Notes: generated by a model from the sequence alone, not told the origin. DNA of 22,712 bases from a virus (IMGVR_UViG_3300020204_000404:1-22712), one strand, 5' to 3'. Positions 1,572-19,400 are shown, counted from the first letter of the stretch. A program made the numbers and translations.

Positions 1572-3452
1572 ATGAAGCATTTTACGTTAGATCAATTAGC
1601 TCAAGGCATCAAGGACAAGCATGTCGGTGCCGAGCGCGCCCGTTTGACAGAAAAGTGGAGCCGCACAGGTCTCCTCCGCGGTCTCGATGGCACACGTCGT
1701 GAGATGATGTCGCAGCTCCTCGAGAACCAGGCAGCACAGGTCCTCAAGGAGAGCAACGCTCTCTCGACCGGCGGCGGCAGTCTCGTTGGTTCAGGCCAAA
1801 TCCAAGGCTTCTCCAACATCGCCTTCCCGATCGTTCGCCGCGTGTTCGGTGGCCTCGTCGCCAACGAGCTCGTCTCCATCCAACCAATGAGCCTTCCCTC
1901 AGGTCTAATCTTCTATCTTGATTATACCTACGGCTCAGACGTCGGTAAGCCACTGGGCGAAACCGGTGAGGTCTACTCTCGTGGTACATCTCTCTACAAC
2001 AACCCAGCTGGTAAGGGAGTTCGTTCCGGCTCTCTCGCGACAGGTGGTATGTACGACCTCGTCGGTACTGGTTACTCTCGCGTCACCGGTTCAATGTCTG
2101 CGCTAAACTTCGCCGCAGGGACAGTGTACTCTGGTTCTTATAAGGGCGCCGACGCACTTACTTGGACCGACGGTGGTATCGTCGCAGCAGCAAGCGACTT
2201 CTCGGGATCCAATGCTCGTTGGTTGGACTTCGACGGTCAAGTTGAAACGGCCTTGTCACAAGGTGACCTCGACTTGTTCTTTGTTTACGTTCCTACATCT
2301 GCAATCACAGCTGTAATACCAGCTGCGGATCTTCTTGCAGTTGAACAAATCGCAATGTTCAGCGGCTATGGAGCCAATGCAACCGCATGGGGCGAGACAT
2401 ACCAAGGTGGACAAGGAGTTCTTAACCTTCGTCGCCTCAACAAGCGTGGTAACTTCGCCCCCGCCTCGGGCTTCTCTCCAGATGCATTGAATGGTACACA
2501 CGTTCAAATGGTTCTTAAGGGCGCAAACGGCCTCAGCGCACTAACATCAGGAAACGGTGCACTCTCTTGTGCTGTCGCTTCAAGCCTCTCGGTTGATTCG
2601 GCATCCGGCGCGACCGTGACCGTTCCGTCCTTCGAGTCTGACTTCGGAGCGACACCGGCACCGGCGATCCCAGAGATCGACATCAAGATCGAGTCCATCG
2701 CGATCACAGCAGAGACTCGCAAGCTCCGCGCCAAGTGGTCACCGGAACTCGCACAAGACCTCAACGCGTACCACTCAATGGACGCCGAGGTCGAGCTCAC
2801 CTCGATCCTCTCCGAGCAGATTGCTCTAGAGATCGACCGCGAGATCCTCAACGACCTTGTGACACAAGCCAACGGCGCCAACTACTACTGGTCGCGCGCT
2901 CCAGGCAAGTTCGTTAACAAGACAACCGGTGCCGCAGTCACGTTAGCTTCGTCCCTCTCTATCGGTCCGGCCTTCACCGGTACGGTCCGCGAGTGGTACG
3001 AAACGCTCATCGAGACCGTCATCGACGTCGCCAACACCATCCATCGTAAGACCCTCCGTGGCTCTGCAAACTTCCTCGTTTGCGGTCCGGACGTCGCCAC
3101 CATCCTCGAGGCCTCCGTGCTCTACAAGCCGAAGTTCTCCATGGACGGCGAAGGACAGGTTGGCTCACCGTTCACTGTCGGCGCCGAGGCAATCGGTACT
3201 CTCAGCAACCGCTTCACAGTCTACAAGGATCCTTACTTCGTCAGAAACAAGATCCTCGTCGGCTACAAGGGTGGCAGCTACCTCGAGACCGGCTACGTCT
3301 ACGCTCCGTACGTGCCACTCATCGTGACACCAACCATCTTTGCACCGGAAGATTTCACACCTCGTAAGGGCGTGATGACTCGCTACGGCAAGAAGATGGT
3401 CCGCACCGATTTCTACGGCACGGTGACGTGCTTGGACATGAACATCATCTGA
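1572..3452 (+). CDS. Major capsid protein, T4 gp23-like
   Basis: Builds the capsid shell. The 626-residue product shows gp23-family blocks. Near residues 80-118 are FPIVRRVFGGLVANELVS and QPMSLPSGLIFYLD, which match the T4 segment following the cleavage site. Residues 381-430 (ETRKLRAKWSPELAQDL, then HSMDAEVELTSILSEQIALE) match the T4 core helix region, and residues 563-610 match the T4 C-terminus. Residues 51-53 (ENQ) and an LKE at 58-60 lie where T4 gp23 is trimmed by its protease, so cleavage after Glu60 is possible. A Gly/Ser/Ala-rich stretch at about 172-368 is much longer than the corresponding part of T4 gp23 (521 aa in total) and probably forms a surface insertion domain. AGGAG at 1561-1565 with a 6-nt spacer sets the start. 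Codons are strongly C-ending, unlike the AT-ending tail genes, as expected for the most abundant virion protein. A terminator follows. Confidence 0.95.
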   Translation: MKHFTLDQLAQGIKDKHVGAERARLTEKWSRTGLLRGLDGTRREMMSQLLENQAAQVLKESNALSTGGGSLVGSGQIQGFSNIAFPIVRRVFGGLVANELVSIQPMSLPSGLIFYLDYTYGSDVGKPLGETGEVYSRGTSLYNNPAGKGVRSGSLATGGMYDLVGTGYSRVTGSMSALNFAAGTVYSGSYKGADALTWTDGGIVAAASDFSGSNARWLDFDGQVETALSQGDLDLFFVYVPTSAITAVIPAADLLAVEQIAMFSGYGANATAWGETYQGGQGVLNLRRLNKRGNFAPASGFSPDALNGTHVQMVLKGANGLSALTSGNGALSCAVASSLSVDSASGATVTVPSFESDFGATPAPAIPEIDIKIESIAITAETRKLRAKWSPELAQDLNAYHSMDAEVELTSILSEQIALEIDREILNDLVTQANGANYYWSRAPGKFVNKTTGAAVTLASSLSIGPAFTGTVREWYETLIETVIDVANTIHRKTLRGSANFLVCGPDVATILEASVLYKPKFSMDGEGQVGSPFTVGAEAIGTLSNRFTVYKDPYFVRNKILVGYKGGSYLETGYVYAPYVPLIVTPTIFAPEDFTPRKGVMTRYGKKMVRTDFYGTVTCLDMNII

Positions 3453-3560: not shown

Positions 3561-4421
3561 ATGATCACATGCAAAGAATGCGGACATGAATGTTCGGCAC
3601 AGAATGCTTTAGGATACCACTTACGCTCTCACGGTTTGACGTACCCTGATTACGTAGTCAAACATGAATATGATGGTACTTGGCCACACTGCACCTGCGG
3701 GACAAAGCTTCCTTACAAAAAAGGAGGCTTTTCTCGTTTCTGTTCCAAGTCCTGTGCAGCTAGCGGGACCAACAATCCTATGTCAGGAAAGACAGGAGAA
3801 AAATCTCCGTTATTCGGACTAAAGAGAACCGAAGAACAATTAAAGAATTATTCTGAGGGTGCCAAGAAGCGATGGGAGATTCATGGTGATAGAATCAGAA
3901 AAATGATGAAAACTGATGCATATAAGAATATGCAATCATTGGCAAACAAAAATTCTTATGCAACAACCGATAGAGCAAAAAGAACGTCCGAATCCGTCCA
4001 CCGTTTCTGGGCCGAGTCTCCGCTCGCCCCCCTCCTCCGCGAAGAGGCATCGCAGCGCGCCATCAGGCTCCTTGCCGAGAACAAGATCGGTCCACAGGCT
4101 CCATTCAAGCGTGAAACCTTGATCAACCCGTGGACGGGCGAAGAAGAGCACATGCATTCTTCGTGGGAATCTGTCTTCTTCCAGACGTGCGTTGAGCGGA
4201 AGTATGAGGTGACCAAGAACCATGGGATCACGATTCCTTACGTTCATCCGGATGGAACAACGCGAAACTATATTCCAGATTTCTTTGGAAGAGAGGATAG
4301 AGTGTTGTACGAAGTGAAGGGTCGGCGTGACGAAGTTGATGATGCCAAGTGGAATGCTGCGCGAGATTATTGCGATCGTATGGGTTGGGGCTTCGTGATC
4401 ATGATGCCCCCAGAGTTTTAG
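3561..4421 (+). CDS. Free-standing homing endonuclease, zinc finger + NUMOD3 + PD-(D/E)XK
   Basis: A 286-aa selfish DNA endonuclease that would cut phage genomes lacking it and so spread. An N-terminal zinc finger (C4-C7-H20-H24) is followed by a second Cys cluster (C44, C46, C61, C65). A NUMOD3-type DNA-binding segment lies at about 70-105 (GTNNPMSGKTGEKSPLFG). The C-terminal nuclease has the PD-(D/E)XK pattern: SSWES with Glu203, IPDFF with Asp240, and YEVKGRR with Glu251 and Lys253. This arrangement is common in phage-borne homing endonucleases next to conserved genes, here the capsid gene. The reading frame is intact and the catalytic residues are present, so it may be active. Bases 3995-4150 are visibly more GC-rich than the first third of the gene, suggesting domain shuffling. 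The cut site cannot be told from the sequence. Confidence 0.85.
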   Translation: MITCKECGHECSAQNALGYHLRSHGLTYPDYVVKHEYDGTWPHCTCGTKLPYKKGGFSRFCSKSCAASGTNNPMSGKTGEKSPLFGLKRTEEQLKNYSEGAKKRWEIHGDRIRKMMKTDAYKNMQSLANKNSYATTDRAKRTSESVHRFWAESPLAPLLREEASQRAIRLLAENKIGPQAPFKRETLINPWTGEEEHMHSSWESVFFQTCVERKYEVTKNHGITIPYVHPDGTTRNYIPDFFGREDRVLYEVKGRRDEVDDAKWNAARDYCDRMGWGFVIMMPPEF

Positions 4422-4427
4422 AACTTA

Positions 4428-4460
4428 GTGTTACAAACACGCTCCTTGTGTTACTATATA
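4428..4460 (+). promoter_or_regulatory. Putative promoter and inverted repeat before second homing endonuclease
   Basis: GTGTT-ACA-AACAC at 4428-4440 is a perfect inverted repeat, and GTGTTAC recurs at 4448-4454 just before TATATA (4455-4460), a likely -10 box. A weak -35 (TTACAA, 4431-4436) sits 18 bp upstream, inside the inverted repeat, so a protein bound there would block the promoter. The repeat may be chance because it is short. Confidence 0.4.
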
Positions 4461-4482
4461 GTCCATACAAGGGTGTAATGAC

Positions 4483-5907
4483 ATGGACTGTAGGCTATGT
4501 GACTTTCGACATGATGATGCAAAGAAACTGACAAACCACATCAGGTCAATTCACGATCTGTCATCAGAGGATTACACTGTTGAAGTATACCACGGAGGTA
4601 AAAAACCTGTTTGCGAAGTGCGTTCATCCTCCGTCAGATATGTTTCTTTTTCTTTTAAAAGATTCTGCAAAGACCATTCCCATCTCGCTATGAAAGAAGG
4701 CGGAGCCCGAGGCGGAAAGGCCGAAGCTTGGAATAAGGGGCAAAGTAAGGATACAGATCCAAGGATAAAGCTCCAGTCTGAATCAATGACAGGTGAAGGT
4801 AACCCGTTCTATGGTCGCCGCCATACACGAGAGACCCTAGAAAAAATTAGCTTAAGTAAGATGTTGGAAACATCTACGCTAAAAGAAAGATTATTGGAGA
4901 GGCAGTCTGAGTTCACCCTCATTACTCCGTTAGAAGAATACATCTCTCGGCAAGAGCAGTACCTCAAGTTTCAGTGTAATCAATGTGGAGAGGTTCAACC
5001 AAAGACTCTACAGGCCTTTGAGAGAGGAAGTAGGTGTTATAAGTGCCACCCATTCAGCAAGTCCAATTGGGAACTAGAGGTGTTCACATTCGTTCAATCA
5101 TTAACATCTGATGTGATATCAGGCGACAAGAAGGCGATGTCTCCGAAGGAAATCGACGTGTATGTTCCTTCCAAAAAATTTGGGATAGAGTGTCATGGGT
5201 TGTACTGGCACAGCGAAGGTTCTAAACAAGGGGTTTTTGATAAGAACAAGCATCTAGAAAAATCCGTCCTTGCTGCGAAGAACGGCATAAAGTTGCTGCA
5301 GATATTTGAGGATGAATGGAGAGACAAGCGAGAGATATGCGAGTCGATGATCCGCCACCGTCTCGGCATGGATCGTTACAGGTGTAAGACCTGGTCCACA
5401 AAAGTCGTCGAATTAAACACACAAGAACAAAGGTCTTTCTTCGATTCTACACACATAGCAGGATATGTCCCGTCCAAGGTAACGTGGGGATTAAGAGACA
5501 GGAGTGGTATCGTCGTTGCTGCCTTGTCACTTCGTATTCCAAGGAACGGCAAGAAGTACGAAGGTTACCTAGAAATTGCTCGGTACAGCACGGCTCAAGC
5601 GACCTCTGTTCCTGGGGGTTTGTCTAAGTTGGTGAAACGCGCCAAAGAGTGGTGCAAAAAAAACGGATACCGTGGAATCATGACATACGTCGATAGACGT
5701 GTAGGAGAAGGGGACGGATATAAGTCTGTAGGGTTTTCTTTTCTAGGATCAACGACCGTAGATTATTGGTACACTGATAACCAGCTTCGTTACGATAGGT
5801 TTAAGTTTAGAGCAAAAAATGGTAAGTCCGAACGTCAGATTGCAATTGAGGTGAGAGTCTCAAGGATTTATGGATGTGGATCACACATGTACGTCATCAA
5901 TTTATAA
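4483..5907 (+). CDS. Hef-like homing endonuclease with NUMOD3 and C-terminal GNAT-like domain
   Basis: A second intact selfish endonuclease, 474 aa. In order: a zinc finger (C3-C6-H19-H24) related to that of the preceding gene; WNKGQ and a NUMOD3-type segment at about 82-123 (GEGNPFYGRRHTRETLEKIS); a zinc ribbon (C165, C168, C185, C188); and a PD-(D/E)XK nuclease at about 195-295 (Glu199, EIDVY with Asp225, FGIECHG with Glu236, HLEK, IFEDEW). This nuclease and what follows match the phage Hef-like family. The last third (about 300-474) is the domain usually attached to it, with a GNAT-like look (EIARYST, VPGGLSKLVKRAKEW, YVDRR). AAGGG at 4469-4473 is a weak ribosome site. Its stop is followed immediately by a TnpB remnant, so this interval has taken several insertions. 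The target is unknown. Confidence 0.85.
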   Translation: MDCRLCDFRHDDAKKLTNHIRSIHDLSSEDYTVEVYHGGKKPVCEVRSSSVRYVSFSFKRFCKDHSHLAMKEGGARGGKAEAWNKGQSKDTDPRIKLQSESMTGEGNPFYGRRHTRETLEKISLSKMLETSTLKERLLERQSEFTLITPLEEYISRQEQYLKFQCNQCGEVQPKTLQAFERGSRCYKCHPFSKSNWELEVFTFVQSLTSDVISGDKKAMSPKEIDVYVPSKKFGIECHGLYWHSEGSKQGVFDKNKHLEKSVLAAKNGIKLLQIFEDEWRDKREICESMIRHRLGMDRYRCKTWSTKVVELNTQEQRSFFDSTHIAGYVPSKVTWGLRDRSGIVVAALSLRIPRNGKKYEGYLEIARYSTAQATSVPGGLSKLVKRAKEWCKKNGYRGIMTYVDRRVGEGDGYKSVGFSFLGSTTVDYWYTDNQLRYDRFKFRAKNGKSERQIAIEVRVSRIYGCGSHMYVINL

Positions 5908-6052
5908 TTGTGAATAGAATGATCAAGACTGGCTTTGCGGCATATACTTCACAGAAGTGTTCTTTTTGCGGAAACATTTTGAGAAGTAATCGTCAAGGAG
6001 GCAAATATTCTTGCAAAAAAGGCATACGGCATGTAATATCAGAGATCGTTAG
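5908..6052 (+). pseudogene. Decayed 3' end of an IS200/IS605-type tnpB
   Basis: Between the endonuclease stop and base 6019 one frame reads GFAAYTSQKCSFCG, then NR, GGKYSCKK. This is the C-terminal zinc ribbon of TnpB nucleases (typical YTSQ-C-x2-C, NR, F/Y-x-C-x2-C). The second CxxC is broken. After CKK the family-like ending HTACNIRDR followed by TAG (6023-6052) continues in a different frame, which looks like a small deletion compared with the usual C-G-H-A-D-x-N-A-x-R-N-I. Nothing of the RuvC part is seen upstream because the preceding endonuclease gene occupies that DNA. It should be non-functional as a nuclease. A 67-aa frame starting at 5874 covers it but overlaps the endonuclease gene and is not a real gene. 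Confidence 0.6.
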
Positions 6053-6065
6053 GTCTCTAAATCAT

Positions 6066-6085
6066 CTCACAGTTTAAACTGTGAG
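6066..6085. repeat. Perfect 20-bp palindrome (CTCACAGTTTAAACTGTGAG)
   Basis: Two 10-bp half-sites with no spacer, centred on GTTTAAAC, 13 bp after the end of the TnpB remnant. IS200/IS605 elements carry subterminal palindromes and a structured omega RNA at the tnpB 3' end, so this may be a leftover of that end. It could also be an operator or a transcript hairpin. The rest of 6086-6240 shows no gene that I can support. Confidence 0.6.
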
Positions 6086-6240
6086 CAGGATGCAGTCAAT
6101 CATCCGTACGGAAACAGCGTTGTTCTTGGCGCTGAGTTCCAAGGTCATGGCCTTGTACCGTGACTATTTGACTAAAAAATGGTTATAGAAGATAAAAAGG
6201 CAGAAGCTCTTAAATCGCAAGAAAAAGAAGAAGATTGATG

Positions 6241-6246
6241 TATAAT
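6241..6246 (+). promoter_or_regulatory. Putative -10 box (TATAAT) before HNH gene
   Basis: Consensus TATAAT 7 bp upstream of the GTG start. No good -35 box is present at 16-18 bp, so support is limited to the -10 box and the lack of any ribosome site. Confidence 0.3.
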
Positions 6247-6253
6247 TGTATCC

Positions 6254-6580
6254 GTGAAGAGACGACGGATGCATGGTCAGCCTAAGTTAGAGAAAGATCG
6301 ATGCGAGATCTGTAGGTATGACCGTCCTGCGGCAATAAACATTCATCATATAATTCCGAGGTGTGATCCTCGATGCACAAATGATAACAATAATCTCGCT
6401 GTCGTTTGCCATTCTTGTCATGATTTAATTCATGAAGGAGAAATAACGATAATCGGTGTATATTCATCAACAGGCGGAAGAAAACTTATGTGGTTTAAAC
6501 AAGATGAAGAGCCGCCATTAGAACGAGAGTTTTGGTTAATAAAAGAAAATCCTCTTGTTTTAAGAAGAAAACAAAAATAA
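6254..6580 (+). CDS. Small HNH endonuclease
   Basis: A 108-aa HNH nuclease, probably a third mobile endonuclease of this interval. It shows CEIC at 17-20, the catalytic pair in IHHIIPR (His31-His32), an Asn-rich DNNNLAVVC turn and CHSCHDLIH (C52, C55, H56, H60). The two CxxC pairs would bind a structural zinc and the HH/N/H residues form the metal site, so the enzyme looks intact. Start: GTG at 6254 has no Shine-Dalgarno, but a perfect TATAAT lies at 6241-6246, implying a leaderless message; an ATG at 6269 is the alternative. No NUMOD or other DNA-binding domain is visible, which leaves open a restriction-like or packaging-related role. Its position next to two homing endonucleases favours selfish DNA. 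Confidence 0.8.
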   Translation: MKRRRMHGQPKLEKDRCEICRYDRPAAINIHHIIPRCDPRCTNDNNNLAVVCHSCHDLIHEGEITIIGVYSSTGGRKLMWFKQDEEPPLEREFWLIKENPLVLRRKQK

Positions 6581-6591
6581 TTGTTGACCAC

Positions 6592-6620
6592 TTTATATTT
6601 TTCTTTACCTGTGTTATTAT
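6592..6620 (+). promoter_or_regulatory. Putative promoter of the exported three-gene cluster
   Basis: TTTATA at 6592-6597 and TATTAT at 6615-6620 are 17 bp apart. Transcription would begin about 6627, only three bases before the ATG at 6630, and no Shine-Dalgarno sequence is present. The segment TGTGTTATTATAT (6610-6622) resembles TGTGTTACTATAT before the second homing endonuclease, so both may answer to the same polymerase or sigma factor. Confidence 0.45.
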
Positions 6621-6629
6621 ATTACCAAT

Positions 6630-8093
6630 ATGGGTAGAAGAAATAACGTTGTAATAAATGGATTGATAGTATCTCTCGCATTCGGATTAACGTTATACGG
6701 ATGTGAACGTCCTAATCCTTATAAGCTAGCAGGCGACACGTCTGCTGTTTTTAAAGATTGTCCGACTCCGAAACAATCTGCTACGGCTTCTGGCGATTCG
6801 CAAACGTCTGTTACGGTCTCAACGAACGTTTCAACAACGATATCTGGAGGTTTGACGTCGGCTTCTGTTTCACCCGGGTCGGGGCAACAACAACAAGAGA
6901 TGACAGAGCTTGATGAAAGAGAGTTAGATTATTCAGAGGCGTTGCGAACGGCAAGCATCTTAATCTTAGGGGATGTTCCAACTGTTTCTGAAATATATGA
7001 GTTGGCAGATTTACCTGCGGATATGCAGGATGAAAAATACCAAGAGTTGATCGATAAGAAGCTATCTGATCCACATTTTGCAGCTACCTTGGTCGAATTT
7101 TTTAAGTATACTTTTAAAATGGGTGGCATTTCTACTGTAGCCGGCGAGCCAAATCGTGACACCGCGCCTACTTTTGCAGCGAAGATAGTATATGAAGAAA
7201 AAGATTGGAGAAATATAATTGTCCAGCAGACTAATACATGTCCTACTTTTAATGCTACAAGCAATACCTTTATTGATGGTTCTTGTAACAATCTTCTTGC
7301 CGGGATGAATCATTCAGGAATCCTAACAGATCCAGGAGTTCAAAGTTTATACTACGGTAATCTATCATTTCGTCGTAATCGATTCTTTCATGAGACATTT
7401 TTATGTAGATCTGGAAATGAACAATCAGGTGGTGAACCGACAGATCAACCTCCTACAGCTTCTCCTTGTTCAGGAGCTGATCCAATCCCAGGATATCAAA
7501 ATAAGTGGCCTGTTAGCGAAATTGCTGGTGCTTGTAATGGTGGACGAGTAGATTTTCATGCCTATAATTCCAGCAACGTTTGCGCAAATTGCCATGCAAC
7601 ATGGAATCATCGTTCTCCTTTATTCAGCCAATTTGATTCAAAGGGAGTTTTTCAACCGTTGACACCGGTCGGAGAATATTCGGTATTTGTACCAGTCAAT
7701 GGTTCTCCAAGAGCGAAGTTATCCGATTGGCTTTGCACTGCTCCATCTTGTCCAAATGGTGGCAACAACAAACCAGCGTGGAAAAAGGTAATGAAAGTTA
7801 ACGGAGTTGAAATGCCCGCCTCCGCAGATACGATCAATGAACTTGGTCAACAGATGTCAAAGGATGATGAAGTAATCGAATGCGTTGTAAAGAGGATGTG
7901 GAATTATTCCATGGGTCGTGCAGATATAACTGAGATTGGTGGTCGTTCTTGGGTGTCCCTACCAGATCGTAAGGACAAGAATCCAGAATTGGTGACGATG
8001 TCAAAACTCGTGACGATGTTTAAAGGAAATGGATATAACCTTAAGCAGGTATTCCGTACCATCTTACTTTCCGATGATTTCGTGAGGTTCTAA
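6630..8093 (+). CDS. Cytochrome-like lipoprotein, DUF1592/DUF1588/DUF1585 type
   Basis: A 487-aa exported lipoprotein. A basic start, a hydrophobic stretch (8-23) and LYGC with Cys25 form a signal peptide II. A Ser/Thr-rich linker (about 48-90, including VSPGSGQQ) follows. Residues about 100-165 resemble the N-terminal part of planctomycete/myxobacterial DUF1592-like proteins. Residues about 228-345 resemble DUF1588: GILTDPG, RFFHETFLC, then NVCANCH at 316-322, a CxxCH heme c type motif. The last 90 residues match DUF1585: IECVVKRMWNYSMGR, then GYNLKQVFRTILLSDDF. The molecular role of these families is unknown; redox or surface roles are guesses. With one CxxCH it could bind heme, if the host matures c-type cytochromes. 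It leads a cluster with 3- and 12-bp gaps. I know of no usual phage function for this family. Confidence 0.75.
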   Translation: MGRRNNVVINGLIVSLAFGLTLYGCERPNPYKLAGDTSAVFKDCPTPKQSATASGDSQTSVTVSTNVSTTISGGLTSASVSPGSGQQQQEMTELDERELDYSEALRTASILILGDVPTVSEIYELADLPADMQDEKYQELIDKKLSDPHFAATLVEFFKYTFKMGGISTVAGEPNRDTAPTFAAKIVYEEKDWRNIIVQQTNTCPTFNATSNTFIDGSCNNLLAGMNHSGILTDPGVQSLYYGNLSFRRNRFFHETFLCRSGNEQSGGEPTDQPPTASPCSGADPIPGYQNKWPVSEIAGACNGGRVDFHAYNSSNVCANCHATWNHRSPLFSQFDSKGVFQPLTPVGEYSVFVPVNGSPRAKLSDWLCTAPSCPNGGNNKPAWKKVMKVNGVEMPASADTINELGQQMSKDDEVIECVVKRMWNYSMGRADITEIGGRSWVSLPDRKDKNPELVTMSKLVTMFKGNGYNLKQVFRTILLSDDFVRF

Positions 8094-8096
8094 ACC

Positions 8097-9134
8097 ATGC
8101 AAAAAAATATAATGAAAAAATTTGGTTGGTCTACACTCGGAATAATTTCAACATTTTTAATGTTTAATTCGTGCGGTTCTACTGCACCTGATATTGGCGA
8201 AAATTATTGTCCTGACATAGAAGACTTATTAGGACCAGCAACCGTTGTTAGCGTAGCTGCATCTACATCTTCAGCAACAACAGACGGTGGAGTAGGAGGT
8301 TCACAAGTTTCTGCTGGTTCTGGCCAGCAAATGTCAACTGGCAGCGGGATGAAAGAGCTTTCGGAATACGACATTCCTAATCAAGATGAAATTATGTCTA
8401 GATTGCATTCTTGTAGAAAATTGACTTATGTACAATTAGGAAATTTTTTAAAGGCAAGAGGTGTTGCAGTTCCAACAGGAAATCTATTAGATAACCGAAC
8501 AACGATGACGAACGTTTTTGGTCAATCGGTAACGCTTGGAAACATTTTTGGTGGTTCAGGCGCATCATGTGAAACGGCAATAACTGATGCAAACGGAACA
8601 AATGATCCTGTTTGCTCAGGAGCAGAAATTTGTTTTTGTAATCAAGACGATAAAATGAATCAGGTTAATCGTAGTTGTCTTGACGTCGGAAATAACTCAC
8701 CGGATGCAGCAGATGGATATTGCGTATCCAAACCATCTACGGCGGGATTTTTATATTTTTCAGGAAAAGATGCTTTAGGCGTTCCAAAATTGGATTCGCG
8801 TCTTGGGGAAAAAGAAGAACATTCAACAGCTTCTGCAATGAAAATGATGGATATTTTCATTCAAGCTGCCTCACAAATCGTTACAAACATATCTGATCCT
8901 AACAAAGCACCGGCTTGTACATTAAATGGTAAAAACCTTCCTATGTTTGCCAACGATGGAAGTTGCGTTGAAGAATCAGTAAGTTGCTTGATTGGATATC
9001 CTGCGACGGATGATCACATGTTGTTGTGTAATTTGCTAATTCAAAAAGCAAAATCTGGTGATCAATCAGATTTAATTAAGAAGCGTAACATTGCAGTTGC
9101 GGTGATGCTCGCCGCGGCACATTCATGTCAATGA
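8097..9134 (+). CDS. Cysteine-rich lipoprotein of unknown function
   Basis: A 345-aa product not matched to a named family. A Lys-rich start and hydrophobic run to FNSC give a lipobox-like site at Cys26, with Phe at -3 and Asn at -2, so somewhat atypical. The next region has the same plan as the preceding protein: a CP pair, a Ser/Thr/Gly-rich linker and VSAGSGQQ (71-78), followed by an acidic KELSEYD. The body holds 14 cysteines including the lipid one, with a cluster at 158-209 (CSGAEICFCNQ), suggesting a disulfide-bonded periplasmic or surface domain. The C-terminal part (CLIGYPATDDHMLLCN, then a helical end) ends in HSCQ. GAGG at 8084-8087 gives a good ribosome site, and the 3-bp gap to the gene before implies co-translation and probably a shared complex. 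Confidence 0.7.
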   Translation: MQKNIMKKFGWSTLGIISTFLMFNSCGSTAPDIGENYCPDIEDLLGPATVVSVAASTSSATTDGGVGGSQVSAGSGQQMSTGSGMKELSEYDIPNQDEIMSRLHSCRKLTYVQLGNFLKARGVAVPTGNLLDNRTTMTNVFGQSVTLGNIFGGSGASCETAITDANGTNDPVCSGAEICFCNQDDKMNQVNRSCLDVGNNSPDAADGYCVSKPSTAGFLYFSGKDALGVPKLDSRLGEKEEHSTASAMKMMDIFIQAASQIVTNISDPNKAPACTLNGKNLPMFANDGSCVEESVSCLIGYPATDDHMLLCNLLIQKAKSGDQSDLIKKRNIAVAVMLAAAHSCQ

Positions 9135-9146
9135 GGAAGAAAACAA

Positions 9147-10748
9147 ATGGCTAATTGGAAACTAAAAGAACTCCGTGATGAACGTCGTAGAACATTTCTT
9201 AAGATGTGTGGCGTTACTGCTGCAGCTATTGGTATATCTCGTACTGACTTATTAAACTTCCTTTCTGATGAAGGAGGGTATGGATTAGCTGAAGCTGCTG
9301 GCACGACTTATGGAAGATCTTTATTGGTCCCAGCGCCAAATGGAGTTCATGCATGGTTTCAAGAGTTATGGCCAGTTCCAGATGTTGCAATGAAAGCAAC
9401 TGCAAATGCTAACGTCCCAGGAATGTCTTCTAATTTTGGAGGATTCTCATCTTACCTGTATACATCTCAATATGGTTACAATCCCGTAAATGGATACCGC
9501 GGAACTTATACACAAGGCAAAGGAAATCAGCTTCCTTCTCTTCCAATAGGGGTTAAAGGCTGGGATGGTGGGGATAGATCCTTTTTTTATGGTCCTCATG
9601 CCCCATGGTTCGATCATATTCTTGGTCTTCCAAAGTATCCTGTAACTGCATATATGTCAGGAAAAGATGAAACTCACACTGAATTTCCAATTTCTCAAGT
9701 AGCTCTTTCTGGTAATTCATCTATGCAAGCAGCATTAGCATCTTTGGGCGCCGCAGGTTCTTCTTCAATTGTCCCCGTCTTAGGAATCGACCCCGTAAAA
9801 TATGGTAGAGCACCTGGCGCCCCTGAAATAGCGACTGTTCCATCGTCTGCGGGGATGATTGATTTATTTAATTCAGCCGCCAGTCAATTTACTTTATCAT
9901 CAAAAGCAGATCAAGAATTATTTGACGTGTATTACAAGGCACTAGTAGGTTTAAGAAAGTCTTCGAATAGAACGACTTGGTTACCTCAAATGCAAGTGAC
10001 TAAGAATGCAGCTCGAATCATTGGTTTAAACTTTGCTTCGCAATTAACTCCGATAAGCCAAGATCTTGCAGATTTTGGAATTCAAGAAATGATTGATAGC
10101 ATAAATTCATCTTCTTCTTACATGTCATCTGCTCAGCGTAAAGGTATTGAGGAATTTGGAAGAACTTTAATTGTTGTTGCAAAATCATTTGCATTAGGTC
10201 TATCTAAGACCGCTATTGTAGCCTTATCCCCAGGCCCAACCAGTGATACGACGTTTACAGATCCTCACGTTACATTTGATTCTCAAACGCAAATGAGTCA
10301 AGGTAGAAATACCATAAAGCATTTAGGGAAAGTTCTTGATGGATTTTACAACTACTTGTCTCAACAAGTCGATCCAGAAAGTCCTACAGAAAAACTAGAT
10401 CAAAACACAACGTTCGTTGCATACGGTGATACGCCCCATACTCCATTACAAGGTTCTACATGGCCGGACGCCACCCCGGATGCGTGTAATTGGACATATG
10501 TGATGGATCCTAAAAGAAACGTTAAGAATGGGTGGTTCGGTCATGTTTATGCAAACAAAGTTAATGGAAAAAACGCAGTTGGATTCAACCCGTTGACTGG
10601 CCTCGACGATTCGACAAAGACATCTGAACAGATGTCGTCATTTGCTTCTGTTGCAACTATTTATGCGGTTGCAAAAGGTGACAACAATAAGACTGCCGAA
10701 TATGGTGTTTCTCCAAATGTAGTTTCTGGAATGATTAACGTTAAATGA
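9147..10748 (+). CDS. Tat-exported DUF1501/DUF1552-type protein
   Basis: A 533-aa secreted protein. Residues 13-19 (RRRTFLK) form a twin-arginine signal, followed by a hydrophobic CGVTAAAIGI and a possible cut after AEA at 48-50, so it would be exported folded. Later segments recall DUF1501/DUF1552 proteins, which have an alkaline-phosphatase/sulfatase-like fold: RSLLVPAPNGVHAWFQELWP at 57-76, a C-terminal half with MSQGRNTIKHLGKVLDGFYN, and LDQNTTFVAYGDTPHTP in place of the family's GT/L-LDN-T-VVV-SE-GRTP region. The usual downstream His motifs are not obvious, so the match is distant and activity is doubtful. In bacteria these proteins are encoded beside DUF1549/DUF1588/DUF1585 proteins, exactly the partner found here. 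AGGA at 9134-9137 is the ribosome site, 12 bp after the previous gene. Confidence 0.65.
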   Translation: MANWKLKELRDERRRTFLKMCGVTAAAIGISRTDLLNFLSDEGGYGLAEAAGTTYGRSLLVPAPNGVHAWFQELWPVPDVAMKATANANVPGMSSNFGGFSSYLYTSQYGYNPVNGYRGTYTQGKGNQLPSLPIGVKGWDGGDRSFFYGPHAPWFDHILGLPKYPVTAYMSGKDETHTEFPISQVALSGNSSMQAALASLGAAGSSSIVPVLGIDPVKYGRAPGAPEIATVPSSAGMIDLFNSAASQFTLSSKADQELFDVYYKALVGLRKSSNRTTWLPQMQVTKNAARIIGLNFASQLTPISQDLADFGIQEMIDSINSSSSYMSSAQRKGIEEFGRTLIVVAKSFALGLSKTAIVALSPGPTSDTTFTDPHVTFDSQTQMSQGRNTIKHLGKVLDGFYNYLSQQVDPESPTEKLDQNTTFVAYGDTPHTPLQGSTWPDATPDACNWTYVMDPKRNVKNGWFGHVYANKVNGKNAVGFNPLTGLDDSTKTSEQMSSFASVATIYAVAKGDNNKTAEYGVSPNVVSGMINVK

Positions 10749-12281: not shown

Positions 12282-13067
12282 ATGTTTCAAGTTCTTAGAA
12301 AAGGCTCAACAGGGCCAGAAGTTGAAAAATGGCAAAACTTTTTACGAGGAAGAACGTCAAATAGTAGCATTGTGGCTGACGCGGTTTTTGGAAATATAAC
12401 AGAACTTGAAACAAAAGCATTCCAAAGCAGCAAAGGATTAATCCCGGATGGTGTAGTTGGTCCAAAAACTTTGGCTATAGCTATTAGTTCAGGATTTCCT
12501 GCTGTTTTAGATTCTTCAAAAAACATTAATGGACCAAACTGGCCGCAACAACCGCCTCATGGGCCTTTAAGTTTTTTAGATAGAGAAAAATTATTTGGTA
12601 AATTTTCTTATGTTTCATCTCCAACGTATGCAAACCCTGAAGCAATAACGATTACGTCAAACTGGACTTCAAATATTTCTCAAGTTTCAATTCATCACTT
12701 ACGCGGAATAGCTGGTGTTCCAAAATCAAGTACTATTCAATTTCATTCATTATTGATTCCTCAAATAACAAAACTTTTTAATAAATGGCATGATGAAGGA
12801 TTAACATATCTGATTTTATCATGGGGTGGTTCATGGGTACCCAGATTCGTTCGTGGATCAAGAACTTCTTTATCTAATCATGCTTGGGGAACGGCATTTG
12901 ATATTAACGTACAATGGAACATGTTAGGTGCTCAACCAGCATTAAGAGGTGAGACAGGTTCTGTTAGAGAGCTTGTAGAAATTGCTTATGAATATGGATT
13001 TTATTGGGGCGGATGGTTTGCAAATCGTCCTGATGGAATGCATTTTGAAGCTTACAAAATACTTTAA
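12282..13067 (+). CDS. Endolysin: peptidoglycan-binding domain + M15 peptidase
   Basis: A 261-aa cell-wall enzyme. Residues 5-70 are a peptidoglycan-binding domain of the PG_binding_1 type (GSTGPEVEKWQNFLRGR, VADAVFGNITELETKAFQ, DGVVGPKTL). The C-terminal part is a zinc peptidase of family M15 (VanY or L-alanyl-D-glutamate peptidase type): SNHAWGTAFDIN supplies His200 and Asp207, and GMHFE supplies His254, the three zinc ligands. It would cut the peptide stems of peptidoglycan. There is no signal peptide, so release in lysis would need a holin, not seen in this window. Lying just before the neck and tail genes, it could instead be virion-borne. There is no clear ribosome site; the start follows the previous stop by 9 bp. 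Confidence 0.9.
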   Translation: MFQVLRKGSTGPEVEKWQNFLRGRTSNSSIVADAVFGNITELETKAFQSSKGLIPDGVVGPKTLAIAISSGFPAVLDSSKNINGPNWPQQPPHGPLSFLDREKLFGKFSYVSSPTYANPEAITITSNWTSNISQVSIHHLRGIAGVPKSSTIQFHSLLIPQITKLFNKWHDEGLTYLILSWGGSWVPRFVRGSRTSLSNHAWGTAFDINVQWNMLGAQPALRGETGSVRELVEIAYEYGFYWGGWFANRPDGMHFEAYKIL

Positions 13068-13191: not shown

Positions 13192-14379
13192 ATGACAACA
13201 TTTGTAGCAACGATTAATCCAACGCCATTTGGCTTTTTTGATGCCGAGGCTTCTTTTCAAACAGAAGCAGACTCGATGGTTTTATTTGTTAAGCGTAAAT
13301 TAGGCGATGACGTTCTTTCTGTAGAGTTAACAAAGAAAGAAATATGGGCATGTTTCGAAGAGGCATGCTGCGAATACAGTAGATTAATTCATGAGATGAA
13401 GATAACATCTGATTTAACAAACGTTTTGGGGTTGCCAACAGGGTCGACTGATCTAACAAACAGATATGCAAAGCGTACGGTAGAATATCTTCTTAGAATG
13501 GCAGAACCGTATGCGACAGAAGCATACATCGGTGGTTCATATGATGCTACGCTTGGATACATAGAACTTGTTTCTGGTCAACAAGATTACAACATTTATA
13601 ATGACGTTAAAGTTGCTGCCGGTGATGATAAAGACGAAGTAGTATACGACACGATGCCCTCAGGGTCTAAAGGAAAATTAAAAGTTGTTGAGTTATTCCA
13701 TTTTGAGCCACTAGCATCTCAACAATTTTTGTTGAACGCTTCAAATATCACAAACTTTTTAGCAACCAATTTTAACTATGAATCGTATGTTAACTCAACA
13801 GTCTTTTATGTCCTTCCAGTGTTTGAAGATGTTTTAAGAAGAGGTATGTTAGAAACAGCATTTAGGGTTAGAAGATCAAATTATTCTTATGAAATAATTG
13901 GAAGCAATTTAAGAATTTATCCAACGCCTTCAACTAATATTCAAATGGGTAAGCTTTTTATAAAATTAATGAAACCTCATAATCCACTAAATCCGACTGC
14001 ATATGCAGATGACTCGATTTACGGCATATCCGGACCCAACAATATGCCTTTTGGTAACATACCTTTTATTACAATAAATCAACCTGGAAAACAGTGGATT
14101 AGACAATACACGTTAGCATTATGCAAAGAACTTTTAGGTTTAATTAGATCTAAGTTTTCTTCGATACCAATTCCAAACGCAGACTTGCAGCTGAATGGGT
14201 CAGATTTGATTTCTCAAGGTAGGGAAGACAAAGACAAGTTAACGACTCAAATGAAAGAATTTTTAGAAAATTTAACAAGCGCAAAACTTCTTGAGCAAGA
14301 TGCTTTGGCAGCTGAAAATATGCAAAAACAGCTTAGATACATTCCAATGCCGCTAGGCAAAGGAATAGTAATCGGATAA
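13192..14379 (+). CDS. Neck protein, probably T4 gp13-like
   Basis: A 395-aa structural protein, likely part of the head-tail connector. The N-terminal part (about 25-65: MVLFVKRKLGDDVLSVELTK, then a helix with FEEACCEYS) has the pattern of gp13-type neck proteins, in which a conserved VELT-like strand and helical bundle are followed by a Gln/Tyr turn (here YIELVSGQQDYNIYN, about 122-136). The C-terminal half has no clear motif. It is the first of three consecutive genes that follow the T4 order 13-14-15, which supports the call more than the sequence does. AAGGAA at 13177-13182 sets the start. Other possibilities are a portal-associated adaptor or another connector subunit. Confidence 0.6.
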   Translation: MTTFVATINPTPFGFFDAEASFQTEADSMVLFVKRKLGDDVLSVELTKKEIWACFEEACCEYSRLIHEMKITSDLTNVLGLPTGSTDLTNRYAKRTVEYLLRMAEPYATEAYIGGSYDATLGYIELVSGQQDYNIYNDVKVAAGDDKDEVVYDTMPSGSKGKLKVVELFHFEPLASQQFLLNASNITNFLATNFNYESYVNSTVFYVLPVFEDVLRRGMLETAFRVRRSNYSYEIIGSNLRIYPTPSTNIQMGKLFIKLMKPHNPLNPTAYADDSIYGISGPNNMPFGNIPFITINQPGKQWIRQYTLALCKELLGLIRSKFSSIPIPNADLQLNGSDLISQGREDKDKLTTQMKEFLENLTSAKLLEQDALAAENMQKQLRYIPMPLGKGIVIG

Positions 14380-14383
14380 TAAA

Positions 14384-15052
14384 ATGGCAAGGCTTTTCAT
14401 TACCCAACGCGAGATTAACTTTATCTCTGACATAACGAAAGAGATTGTTAAAGATGTCGTCGGTCAAAAAATTTATTATTATCCAATTTCAGAGACAAAA
14501 ACAAAGACTCACGAGGTTTATGAAGAAGCTTTACAAAAGATTTTTGATAATCCAATTTTGATTGAAGCATTGGTCAATAGTGAATTTCAAAATGAAACTA
14601 AAATCAATAAGTTCGGTGTAGATACTCAATTTACTTTAGAGGTCTATATTCAACATCGAGATATGGTTGAAAAAGGAATTAATCCTTCAATAGGAGATTA
14701 TTTTTCTTTTGGTACAATATTTTATGAAATTACTGAATACAAATACATGCGCACTATCTATGGGCAGGCAGAAAATATAGATGGAATTTCTTTAGTAGGA
14801 ACGAGGGTTCGTGAAAGCCAATTCAAGGCTCTTATTAATGGCCCAACTGATCTTAAGTACACAGATCAAGGCGCTATTCAGGATACGTTCGTTCAACAAA
14901 GAGGCTTTGCAAAAAACAAAGAAGGTACGACTGCAGACACAAGAGATTTGGTTAAAAATGGTGTATTGGAACCACCTATCACTGGACCAAAAGAAGTTTC
15001 TAATCTTGGAGATCCAAACGATGTAGGTAATGCTTTTTACGATGAGGATTGA
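14384..15052 (+). CDS. Neck/head-closure protein, T4 gp14-like
   Basis: 222 aa, close in length to T4 gp14 (256 aa). The order of features agrees: an early GQKIYYYPISETKT segment (T4 has a CYYVPREY block there), an EALQKIFDNP helix, FGVDTQFTLEVYIQHRDM (T4: FGMQVQDEVTLSI), then PSIGDYFSFGTIFYEITEY (T4: PKEGDLIYFPMDNSLFEI). It would help seal the DNA-filled head and receive the tail. It begins 4 bp after the gp13-like gene and ends 2 bp before the gp15-like start, so the three are surely co-translated. No strong ribosome site of its own is seen; termination upstream may supply ribosomes. Confidence 0.75.
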   Translation: MARLFITQREINFISDITKEIVKDVVGQKIYYYPISETKTKTHEVYEEALQKIFDNPILIEALVNSEFQNETKINKFGVDTQFTLEVYIQHRDMVEKGINPSIGDYFSFGTIFYEITEYKYMRTIYGQAENIDGISLVGTRVRESQFKALINGPTDLKYTDQGAIQDTFVQQRGFAKNKEGTTADTRDLVKNGVLEPPITGPKEVSNLGDPNDVGNAFYDED

Positions 15053-15054
15053 TT

Positions 15055-16374
15055 ATGCCAGTTAGACATAATTCAAAAAGTCGCCCGAGGTTTGGTGTAA
15101 ATGGAATTAATACAGATTCGCATAATGGAAATCCTACGTTCACTATCCCACCAGTAGGTGTAGAGGATGTCGACGTTGCCTTATTTAAATTATTTGATAA
15201 TGAGATTAAGTTACAGGTAGGATCAAAAGATACAGAATTTAAAAAGGTTCCTGTCATTTTTGCGACAGGAGAAAAATGGGCGATATTAAAGAAAAGAAGA
15301 GCATTAAGAGATAGAAATAACTCTTTGATCCTTCCTTTGATTACGATAGCAAGAAACAATATTTCTCAAGATTTAGGTAGTGATATTGCAGGTAGAGGAA
15401 TTAATCAGCAAACAAGCGAAATCATTATTCGTAGACGGCTTGACAAATCTGATAGAAATTATCAAAATTTAATAAATCGTTATTTATTACAAAATCAAAA
15501 GAACGTTGCAACCAATCCTCAGTTGGCTCACATTGATGAACAAATATTAACTGAAAGAAAAGTAGGAGAAGACTCGAATACTCGAACAGGATTAGATGGT
15601 GCATGGTTAGCAGATATAAAAAAGAATAATATTTTTGAAACAATCGTCATACCATCTCCTCAATTTTGCACTGTTAGCTATGAAGTAACGATGTGGACGC
15701 AATATACGCAACATATGAATCAATTGATTGAACAAATTATTTCATCATTTTTGCCACAAGGAAATGCATGGCAATTAAACACACCAAAAGGGTATTGGTT
15801 TATAGCAACAGTAGACAATAACTCATATGATCCAGAAAATAATTTAGATGAGTTAGGTCAAGAAGAAAGAATTATCAAATACAAATTTAATATTAGCGTA
15901 AAAGCGTACATTTTTGCTTCGCAAGATCCTAACACGGGAATTCCTGTAAAAAGATATGTTTCATCACCCATTATTTCTTTTGAAACAAATGTTTTTGCTG
16001 GTGTCGTTAATAATGAGTCAAATTCAATAGTTGCTAATCCATTCTTAGGTTCTGATGATCCGACTCTACCATTATCAGATGAAGTAAATAGAAGAAGAGA
16101 TCAAAGAAACACAAACGGAACTCGTCTATATGATCCTAAAGATTCTTCAATATCAAATGATTCAGCAAATAGCACTAGAAATTCTAAATCTAATCAAATT
16201 GAACCTTTATATAGAAAAACACCAGGCGGGTATGTTAGGGTTTATGCTGTAAACCAAACATCAGGAGAGTCCGTCATTAAGCCAGCTTCACAAGTTAGCG
16301 CTACCCCCGCGCCGTTAACGGCTGATGCTTTATTAGGAGGTTTATCATATCATATCATCGGAGAAGATGATTGA
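15055..16374 (+). CDS. Tail terminator / sheath stabiliser, T4 gp15-like
   Basis: 439 aa from the ATG at 15055, chosen over a TTG at 15049 because GAGG (15044-15047) lies 7 nt before it. Two blocks match T4 gp15: KKVPVIFATGEKWAI followed by a LILPLITI strand (T4: IRVPITYASKEHF and ETILPRINL), and IPSPQFCTVSYEVTMWTQYT followed by QLIEQIISSFLPQ (T4: PSPIKMIYELSIFTRY and FQIVEQILPYFQP). In T4 this protein forms the hexameric ring that ends the tail tube and sheath and joins the neck. It is larger than T4 gp15 (272 aa), with an insert between the two blocks and a long Asn/Ser-rich C-terminal tail. It sits directly before the sheath genes, as expected. Confidence 0.8.
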   Translation: MPVRHNSKSRPRFGVNGINTDSHNGNPTFTIPPVGVEDVDVALFKLFDNEIKLQVGSKDTEFKKVPVIFATGEKWAILKKRRALRDRNNSLILPLITIARNNISQDLGSDIAGRGINQQTSEIIIRRRLDKSDRNYQNLINRYLLQNQKNVATNPQLAHIDEQILTERKVGEDSNTRTGLDGAWLADIKKNNIFETIVIPSPQFCTVSYEVTMWTQYTQHMNQLIEQIISSFLPQGNAWQLNTPKGYWFIATVDNNSYDPENNLDELGQEERIIKYKFNISVKAYIFASQDPNTGIPVKRYVSSPIISFETNVFAGVVNNESNSIVANPFLGSDDPTLPLSDEVNRRRDQRNTNGTRLYDPKDSSISNDSANSTRNSKSNQIEPLYRKTPGGYVRVYAVNQTSGESVIKPASQVSATPAPLTADALLGGLSYHIIGEDD

Positions 16375-16436: not shown

Positions 16437-19400
16437 ATGGCTGAGCAGGTTTTTAGATCTCCTAATTTTTTTGAGCGTGAGATTGAGCTTAAAGCTCCAG
16501 CATCAGCAGGACCAATTGGAGTTCCAGCAGGTGTTATCGGTACATCTAACAAAGGTCCGGCATTCATTCCGGTCACCGTTGCTAGCTTTCAAGAGTTTGT
16601 TAACATATTTGGCGATTTAGATCCAAAGAAGTTTGGTCCATATGCAGTCAATGAGTTTTTAAAGAATAGAACAGCGCTTACTTACATGAGAGTATTAGGC
16701 GCTGGTGCTAACAAAACCACGACGGATATTTCAAATACAGCCGCATCCGGCCGCGTAAAAAATGCAGGTTTCAAGCTTGAAGGTGTTGTTTCAACAGCCA
16801 ACGGAGCGTTAGGCCGCCACAACGGTGCAATACAATTTTTATCTGCAGATCATACGCTTCAAACGAATGAAGCTTATGGTATGCCGATGTTTACTGATAA
16901 TGATTCACGTACCCAAGCTTCTAATATGAATCTTATTAGAGGCGTCGTCATGATGGCCACAGGAACTAGAATGATGGTTCTTGATGGAAATCAGTCTGTT
17001 CCTACAGCATTCAATGGGATGGCTGTTACCGATGACGCAGCGTTAGTTAAATCTGGAAAATTTAAGTTAGTCATCTCTTCTACTTTAGGCTCTGCATATT
17101 CATTTGATGACGGAGTTCCTGGAATTAAAGTATATACAGCATCAATGAACCCGTCAGATGATGATTACTTTGGAAAAGTTCTTAACAAAGACCCAGAAAA
17201 GTTTGCAACATATCAACATCTTCTCTATGCCGATTATGCAGTTGATGATGAAGTTGCTACAGTTGCTAATGATGACTACGTTGCAGTTCTTTCTGGTTCT
17301 TCATTAACCAGCAACGTTTCTGGCGAATCTACAACTGAATTCCGCAAGGCTTTCGGAGCTTTCGACACACGTTATGTTTCTCCTAAGACATCATACTTTA
17401 TTTCTCAGCCATTCGGCGCAACAGAGTATGATCTATTTGCAATTGAAGCTCTCGATGATGGAGCATATGCAAACAGCCTTTACAAGGTCTCAATTGCAAA
17501 TCTCAAGGTTTCTGAGAATGAAGCGGATGAATATGGAATATTCAACGTTCAAATTCGCGACTGGAATGACACAGACATCAACCCAGTCATTCTTGAAGAG
17601 TTTGTGAATTGTTCTTTAAACCCAGATTCAGATAATTATGTCGGAAAACTGATTGGTGATCGTAAGGTTACTTACGATTTTGACCAAGACATCGTTTCTG
17701 AAAGAAGGATTATATCTACGGGTAAGTACTCCAACGTTTCTAAGTACGTCAGAGTTATTATTAATTCAGCAGTTGAAGACAAGAAAGTTCCTGCAAAATC
17801 TCTTCCATTCGGGTTCAGAGGACCAGAACTTTTAAAGACCAATGATTCTCTAAATGATGGTTCAACAGGTGCTAAGAGGCTTGCTGGTTTATTTACAATA
17901 GATTCTTCAGGAATCTTATCACAATCAATCTTGCCTCCTGTTCCATTTAGGTTTAAAGTAACAAAAGGTCCGATGTCAGCCCCAGCTTGGGACGGTGATC
18001 CAGGACCTCAAGAAGTTGCATCACCTCAATTCTATTGGGGCGTCAAGTTTGAAAGAAATAATGTTCCTCTCAATGTAAATCTTTCTGAAGTTAAAAATCC
18101 TCTTCTTGAAAGCTACACTAAGTTTGCAGGTATTAAGAAGCTCGACGTTCTCGTGACCGGTTCCGGCGCTGATACTTTCAATAACAACAAATTCTCGTTG
18201 TCAAAGGTCGCATTCTCTGCAGGAACGATATCTAATCTAACTGGAACAATTCGTGCTCATATGCGAGAAGCTGCGTATGTAAGAAACGCAAAGCTAGATC
18301 CTACAACTTATATGATCAATGATCCTGTTTTAGGAAATAGAATCACGTTTGCTTCATTGCTATCAAATGGACAACCTTATGAATTTAACAAGTATTCTTC
18401 ATTTGCTAAATTCACAACATTCATGCAAGGTGGATTTGACGGTCTAAATGTCCTCGATTCTGCTGCCGCCCGAATGAATGATAAGGCAACATCATTTGAA
18501 ACACCACATGGTGGAGCTTCTGCAACTTATCTACCAGCCGGCCTCGCTTCAAATCAAGCAGGAACTGGTGTCGACAATAACTCAGTTAATTCTTACATTA
18601 CTGCGGTCGATGTTATGACGGATCCTCTACAAGTCAACGTCAATCTTTTGGCATTACCTGGAATTCGTGAAGATTATATCACGAACTATGCATCAAAGAA
18701 AGTTCGTGATTACGGTCTTTCGATGTACGTAATGGATCTTCCAAATTATGACGATAATAGTAATAGAATTTATGATGATTCTGCTGCTAAGATTAGCGTT
18801 GAAAATACTGCTTTAACATTCGAAGCAAGAATTTTTGATAACAATTATGTTGCAACTTACTTCCCAAACGTTTATGTAAATGATGTAACAAATGCCAAGT
18901 ATGTCAAAGTACCAGCTTCAGTTGCAGCATTAGGTGCGTTAGGATTTAATGATAGAGCCGCATATCCTTGGTTTGCTCCAGCAGGATTTAATCGTGCAGC
19001 GCTTGATTTTGTCAACAACGTCGAGGTTAGATTAAACGTGTCTGATAGAGATCGTCTCTACGATGCACGCATCAATCCAATTGCAACATTCCCAAGACTA
19101 GGCTTCGTGATTTACGGACAAAAGACGCTACAAATCAGAAAGTCAGCTCTTGATAGAGTCAACGTGCGTCGTCTTCTTCTTGAGGTCAAGAGACTTGTCA
19201 TAAACATTGCAAATAGAATTGTGTTTGAACAAAACACGCCTGCCGTCAGAAATAAATTCGTAGCTGATGCAATTCTTCAACTAAGTCTCATACAATCGCA
19301 GGCCGGCATTGAAGCATACCAAGTTGTGATGAACGAGACAAATAATACGCAAGAAGACGTTGATCTTAACCGTCTTAATGGTAGAATCGTAGTTGTTCCA

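Follow-up and report, generated by a model that had tools for sequence, protein, structure and literature searches.

Why does a phage carry, among the genes for its capsid and its tail, three genes for proteins that are predicted to leave the cytoplasm? This question is raised by positions 6630-10748 of the viral contig IMGVR_UViG_3300020204_000404. The whole contig, whose 22,712 bp make up a complete IMG/VR record, is called the window below. The initial annotation had described this part of the sequence as a three-gene exported cargo within a phage structural region. An intact trio, P1-P2-P3, was indeed located there in a Gp23-type setting, and all three frames were uninterrupted as stated, with gaps of 3 and 12 bp. 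To judge by gene order and relatedness, phages took up the trio as a ready-made operon from Polyangia, a class of the Myxococcota. It probably serves them as an accessory, host-derived auxiliary cassette that keeps the activity of the host operon. The trio consists of the following parts, with Tat standing for twin-arginine translocation:

6630-10748: the trio P1-P2-P3.
6630-8093, plus strand: P1, a lipoprotein of 487 amino acids with a Ser/Thr-rich tether and DUF1549-like, DUF1588-like (one CxxCH) and DUF1585-like parts.
6702..6704, plus strand: lipobox cysteine C25 of P1, invariant in the alignment.
7581..7595, plus strand: CxxCH of P1 (CANCH), a motif of the haem-c type.
8097-9134, plus strand: P2, a Cys-rich lipoprotein of 345 amino acids.
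8172-8174: lipobox cysteine C26 of P2, invariant.
9147-10748, plus strand: P3, a Tat-signal protein of 533 amino acids with a predicted mixed alpha/beta fold.
9186..9191, plus strand: twin-arginine pair R14 R15 of the Tat signal of P3.

The cellular source was revealed by a scan with the P3 alignment that covered 84,980 species genomes. Ten loci were found, all in metagenome-assembled genomes (MAGs) labelled Polyangiaceae, Polyangia, Myxococcales or Deltaproteobacteria (Myxococcota), with identities to the window of 49-75% for P3, 46-66% for P1 and 44-63% for P2. The Polyangia MAGs contained the whole trio in the same order, as a three-gene run on chromosomal contigs with a GC content of 63-71%. 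Where flanks were available, a gene for a Clp-type ATPase was located upstream (L053, L054, L060), and a GH35 gene plus genes of the NADH-dehydrogenase type (NuoN/M/L-like) were located downstream (L052, L054). A profile built from phage P3 only matched in 26 of 379 genomes of the phylum, and a broader P3 profile found P3-type genes in 73 of 290 genomes of the class. Two or more paralogues per host genome were common. P2 preceded P3 in essentially all cellular loci retrieved, and P1 preceded P2 in almost all of those with enough sequence. Because this order holds across the cellular loci, the trio should be an operon-like unit of these bacteria.

How often this operon entered phages could be deduced from the trees. 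In addition to the window type of the trio ("class A"), a second, paralogous trio ("class B") was present in three phage contigs, L102 (a 200,303-bp record), L186 and L187. In L102, its products comprised 388 (P1), 241 (P2) and 459 (P3) amino acids, and its P3 was 38% identical to that of the window; class B sits upstream of the HNH endonuclease gene and class A downstream of it. In the P3 tree, the class A phages formed one clade (support 99/98) among freshwater Polyangia sequences, and L102 and L186 grouped with a paralogue of genome G379 (96/91). Bootstraps joining both phage groups were 0% in the P3 and the P1 tree, the P1 tree agreed on two origins, and forcing all phages into one clade was rejected by the approximately unbiased (AU) test (p-AU 6.6e-7), so that a single origin of the phage trio was ruled out. 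Since the two groups of phages fall into different host clades in the trees, the trio was captured from Polyangia at least twice on this phylogenetic evidence, and this number is a minimum. The phage copies are nested among cellular homologues that reside on chromosomes, and the cellular sequences branch more deeply and show greater diversity, which makes a transfer from cell to phage the simplest reading.

After capture, the trio seems to have travelled as one piece. Within phages, the distances of P1, P2 and P3 correlated with one another (r about 0.8), with r 0.80 between P3 and P1 and r 0.81 between P3 and P2. P3 distances did not follow those of the major capsid protein (MCP; r 0.09, p 0.25), and the trio thus behaves as a cassette exchanged as a unit. 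The GC content at third codon positions (GC3) was 0.25-0.32 in the trio, close to the 0.19-0.30 of the downstream phage genes and far from the 0.77-0.88 of the host copies. This agrees with the phage-like base composition seen initially and indicates that the GC3 of the trio is ameliorated to the phage level. The trio had also been said to be maintained, and this was borne out by the median ratios of nonsynonymous to synonymous substitution rates (dN/dS) of 0.064 for P3, 0.081 for P1 and 0.154 for P2, compared with 0.165 for the MCP and 0.045 for the adaptor, medians that rest on few pairs with many dS values near saturation. By this measure, purifying selection acts strongly on P3 and P1.

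The phage identity of the window follows from a Gp23-type MCP gene 5' of the trio (E 1.6e-77) and from genes for an adaptor, a sheath stabiliser and two sheaths 3' of it. The genes around the trio are these:

1572-3452: Gp23-type major capsid gene (MCP), upstream of the trio.
3561-4421 and 4483-5907: homing endonuclease genes.
6254..6580, plus strand: HNH endonuclease gene, adjoining the trio.
12282-13067: M15 peptidase/endolysin-like gene, with small genes between it and the trio.
13192-14379: head-tail adaptor.
15049-16374: sheath stabiliser.
16437-19466 and 19528-22578: tail-sheath genes, a tandem pair.

This arrangement is not peculiar to the window. Scans of IMG/VR yielded 23 loci for P1 (66-100% identity) and 33 for P3 (80-100% identity). 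A tally of the contig names from both scans gave at least 37 trio-bearing contigs besides the window, up to 211 kb in size and with the trio in the same slot. Where the contig was long enough, the gene order was MCP, (endonucleases), usually HNH, P1, P2, P3 and adaptor, and the records of 211,097, 204,651 and 187,069 bp contained one copy of the trio each. PHROGs contained no family for the trio, and a tblastn search of INPHARED gave no match.

A scan with the capsid protein led to 80 relatives, several of which, with capsids 75-82% identical, were without the trio. In one of them, L118 (a 297,894-bp record), the HNH gene was directly followed by another gene, and L092 (161,915 bp) also had no trio. 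The absence of the trio from some close relatives indicates that it is accessory cargo. In L070, the HNH gene was located beside a small gene (product starting with MQDW), and in L102 a trio was located between those same two genes, so that these two contigs show the empty and the occupied form of one site. The HNH gene was also present in the trio-less relatives L118, L070 and L092 and belongs, for this reason, to the slot and not to the trio. Other genes may be found in the slot, which was filled by collagen-like tail-fibre-type genes in L092 and by a cytidylyltransferase-like gene in L102.

What the three proteins may do has to be deduced from their motifs and relatives. P1 had been described as a signal peptide II lipoprotein with a CxxCH motif, and this was upheld: C25, at the end of an N-terminal hydrophobic stretch as in bacterial lipoproteins, was kept in 18 of 18 phage homologues, and exactly one CxxCH, located in the DUF1588 region, was present in 38 of 38 P1 sequences (24 phage, 14 cellular). 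The DUF1588/DUF1585-like parts were confirmed for relatives but not for the window P1 itself, whose PSD2/DUF1585 score narrowly missed the Pfam cut-off (25.6 versus 25.8 bits) and which was weak for PSCyt2/DUF1549 (20.1 bits) and PSCyt3/DUF1588 (14.0 bits). PSD2 was matched by 18 of 18 phage P1 sequences (best E 1.6e-7). Cut-offs were exceeded by the P1 proteins of host L054 (PSD2, 29.5), host L060 (PSCyt2, 43.9; PSD2, 29.3) and the second-lineage phage L102 (PSCyt2, 29.9; PSCyt3, 28.8). A sequence search of the PDB with P1 gave no match. By these profile scores, P1 is a small member or a close relative of the PSCyt/PSD proteins, which supports the proposed kinship to myxobacterial and planctomycete-type DUF1549/1588/1585 genes, and, with its one CxxCH, it probably acts as an electron-transfer or redox partner with a single c-type haem. 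P1 carries in miniature the same kinds of parts as the PSCyt2/PSCyt3/PSD2 proteins of Planctomycetes, Verrucomicrobia and Myxococcota, although it is much shorter and its matches are weaker. Published accounts describe the PSCyt genes as having no known function and suggest roles in redox or carbohydrate metabolism (PMC5615132; PMC2754498).

P2 was confirmed as a Cys-rich lipoprotein, with about 14 cysteines and with C26 following an N-terminal hydrophobic stretch in 20 of 20 sequences, again as in bacterial lipoproteins. A profile search with P2 found no family match.

The Tat signal ascribed to P3, a twin-arginine motif with FLK, was verified by a TIGR01409 score of 17.0 bits (cut-off, 16.7) and by the presence of the RR pair in 65 of 65 phage and cellular P3 sequences. 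The residues H177, D372, H374, D428 and D441 were invariant across the same 65 sequences, and this His/Asp set could bind a metal.

The second part of the description, a DUF1501/DUF1552-like protein, gained no firm support. Pfam gave no match of P3 to DUF1501 or DUF1552/HXXSHH, which leaves this part without confirmation by a sequence profile. DUF1501 (PF07394) was rejected, with no profile match and an hhalign E-value of 0.05 at 1% probability. HXXSHH (PF07586, formerly DUF1552) appeared convincing with the full-length protein, at an hhalign probability of 93-94% (93.8%) and an E-value of 1.8e-7. Without the 58-60 N-terminal residues, the probability dropped to 6.5% and 2.6%, and the lower of these values fell inside the spread of the column-shuffled controls. 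This candidate was downgraded because the match vanished without the N-terminal region, that is, the signal had come mainly from the Tat region. The HxxSHH motif was also absent from P3; the HxxSHH stretch of L210 aligned near DPHVTFD of P3. What P3 shares with the HXXSHH proteins is a Tat signal, a similar length and a place downstream of a DUF1585 gene.

A similar arrangement exists in the host genomes, where PSD2 genes precede HXXSHH genes just as P1 is located upstream of a Tat-signal gene. Genomes G001, G002, G299, G374 and G379 harboured 7-14 HXXSHH genes each, nearly all directly downstream of a PSD2 gene, making the HXXSHH-PSD2 pair a widespread uncharacterised two-gene unit. Because nearly every host HXXSHH gene has this position, P3 may have a role equivalent to that of the HXXSHH partners. 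In contrast to the PSCyt/PSD gene pairs, the trio contains an additional Cys-rich lipoprotein, P2, in between, and its P3 is not recognisable as HXXSHH or DUF1501. The literature searched on DUF1552 and the trio mentioned the domain and gave no function.

The structure of P3 was predicted with AlphaFold. Phage sequences alone resulted in a predicted local distance difference test score (pLDDT) of 32, and addition of cellular and class B sequences in a pLDDT of 73.7 and a predicted template modelling score (pTM) of 0.77. Compared with PDB structures, the model gave no significant match (best E 0.36). The first 35 of these non-significant fold matches were sulfatases, phosphoglycerate mutases, autotaxin/NPP and a phosphonate hydrolase, all of which we take to be members of the alkaline-phosphatase superfamily. 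A viral structure library also gave nothing significant; its top match, "DUF1501 domain-containing protein [uncultured Caudovirales phage]" (E 0.63, TM 0.28), was too weak to use. A sequence search of the PDB with P3 found no match. Judged by this weak fold similarity and the invariant residues, P3 is probably a metal-dependent enzyme. P2 and P3 represent two conserved protein families without a convincing entry in Pfam or PHROGs.

The region before P1 may explain how the phage expresses the trio. A putative -10 promoter element matching the consensus is located just upstream of the P1 start:

6615..6623, plus strand: putative -10 element TATTATATT.

A match to TATAAT in at least five of six positions, starting at -14 to -12 of P1, was found in 14 of 19 distinct class A upstream regions, and at the same positions before other genes in 0 of 14 (MCP), 0 of 20 (P2) and 0 of 21 cases (P3), counts that include relatives sharing descent and were taken as they stand. 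Most P1 upstream regions had no Shine-Dalgarno sequence at the normal distance. A -10-like element directly before the ATG without a Shine-Dalgarno sequence suggests a leaderless transcript, so that P1 may start from its own putative leaderless promoter. The HNH gene was similar in this respect, with a TATAAT-like element 12-13 bases before the start in 7 of 13 phages and no Shine-Dalgarno sequence, which may point to a kind of leaderless promoter used generally by these phages.

These findings can now be combined into a proposed mechanism. A lineage of large Gp23-type phages would have taken up an existing chromosomal operon of Polyangia and would express it in infected cells from a promoter of its own. 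P1 and P2 would be exported via the host Sec/lipoprotein route and remain lipid-anchored at their N termini on long, flexible Ser/Thr-rich tethers, and P3 would be exported in a folded state by the host Tat system. At the cell envelope, the three proteins may form a complex and act jointly in a redox-linked or hydrolytic enzyme system, where P1 would be the redox partner, P2 the disulphide-rich partner and P3 the metal-dependent enzyme. The phage copy would thereby sustain or raise the activity of the host operon during infection, to the benefit of the phage. Purifying selection provides indirect support for this benefit and for expression of the trio during infection. It can be suggested more tentatively that large Polyangia phages have more than once taken over a whole exported redox/hydrolase complex of their host, run from their own promoter, and so bring the envelope chemistry of the infected cell under phage control.

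Several points weigh against an auxiliary cassette of this kind. No biochemical function is known for any homologue of the trio, and the literature likewise gives none for the PSCyt domains (PMC5615132). P3 has no significant family or structural match, and the dN/dS medians have the narrow basis stated above. Polyangia are the probable host of this large uncultured phage lineage, an assignment to which the trio points and which derives from gene relatedness; the phage capsid gene was not found in eight Polyangia genomes, which has little weight.

Host-derived auxiliary metabolic genes, or morons, are a known class of phage genes. The trio resembles them as a captured cellular operon that has been ameliorated, is under purifying selection, and is accessory in a variable slot. 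It differs from auxiliary metabolic genes in being a three-gene exported system that uses two export routes and not a cytoplasmic metabolic enzyme. Usual phage cargo concerns cytoplasmic metabolism, toxins or single membrane proteins. At least twice, related phages retained an entire exported operon of three genes that was of one type, and this independent selection argues that the operon does something that matters during infection. On the more tentative reading given above, the trio would stand for a class of phage auxiliary system that acts in the periplasm or on the cell surface and uses both the Sec/lipoprotein and the Tat route, and two of the three proteins would come from families so far not described. 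The trio may also serve as a handle on the large set of DUF1549/1588/1585 genes with their Tat partners, several of which are present per genome in the hosts searched.

The strongest competing explanation, which had been proposed initially, is that the trio acts at the cell surface in superinfection exclusion or in receptor masking, with phage lipoproteins that replace or cover a host complex used as a receptor by competitors. Two tethered lipoproteins and a Tat protein are indeed directed to the envelope, and genes for competition between phages would be expected to be accessory, to be captured more than once and to move together independently of the capsid gene, as is true of the trio. Known exclusion lipoproteins, however, are small single proteins, and the trio encodes three large ones. 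A search of the trio with PADLOC gave no match. The dN/dS values are very low, lowest in the Tat protein, without the diversification expected at a contested surface, and residues invariant across hosts and phages were kept in the phage copies, among them the CxxCH of P1 and the His/Asp set of P3. An enzyme would better account for the low dN/dS and for polar residues conserved as in the cellular homologues, so that exclusion or masking, which gained no positive support, is unlikely. Surface lipoproteins with an exclusion role do exist in other phages, such as the superinfection-exclusion lipoprotein Ltp of Streptococcus phage TP-J34 (PMC3952083). In these general features, Ltp resembles P1 and P2: it is phage-encoded, lipid-anchored and located at the envelope. 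It is, however, a single protein type and not one of three. To our knowledge, neither a Tat partner nor a haem-type motif is known for Ltp.

An auxiliary role also competes with two explanations of a different kind, both of them very improbable. The trio may be a passive passenger, a host fragment acquired through recombination or at a homing-endonuclease hot spot without benefit for the phage. The slot is rich in homing endonucleases, and in contig L049 a truncated P3 is joined to an endonuclease gene. Against this, numerous diverged copies in phages have stayed intact, at dN/dS values far under 1, their GC3 is ameliorated, and two independent captures of the same type of operon would be unlikely by drift. 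Slightly less probable still is that the trio products are components of the virion or of lysis, as their position between the MCP and the connector genes and near the M15 endolysin-like peptidase might imply. Virion proteins assemble in the cytoplasm, whereas the export signals of the trio are invariant; the region also holds other non-structural cargo besides the homing endonucleases, and relatives with the same structural genes manage without the trio. A misassembly of host and phage DNA, for which no sign was found, is refuted. The search for the trio in other phages, proposed initially as a check, showed it in dozens of further contigs with the same phage genes around it, and the phage copies form clades of their own with phage-like GC3.

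In L049 (positions 363-1685), the frame of an HE1-like endonuclease continues, from a short sequence common to both (VTKN), into the latter half of P3; P1, P2 and half of P3 are gone, and the end of P3 is also altered. This structure may be a deletion or an assembly chimera. In the window, the endonuclease cluster at 3561-6580, directly 3' of the capsid gene, comprises a NUMOD3/TnsA-like gene, a NUMOD3 homing endonuclease gene and the HNH gene. The MCP gene is a GC3 outlier, with 0.64 compared with 0.19-0.32 in most other genes of the window; given this value and the MCP distances that do not follow those of P3, the capsid gene may have a separate history. Both tandem sheath proteins are about 1,010 amino acids long with a mutual identity of roughly 33%, and each matches the PHROG tail sheath at its C-terminal part. 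Such large, duplicated sheaths are unusual.

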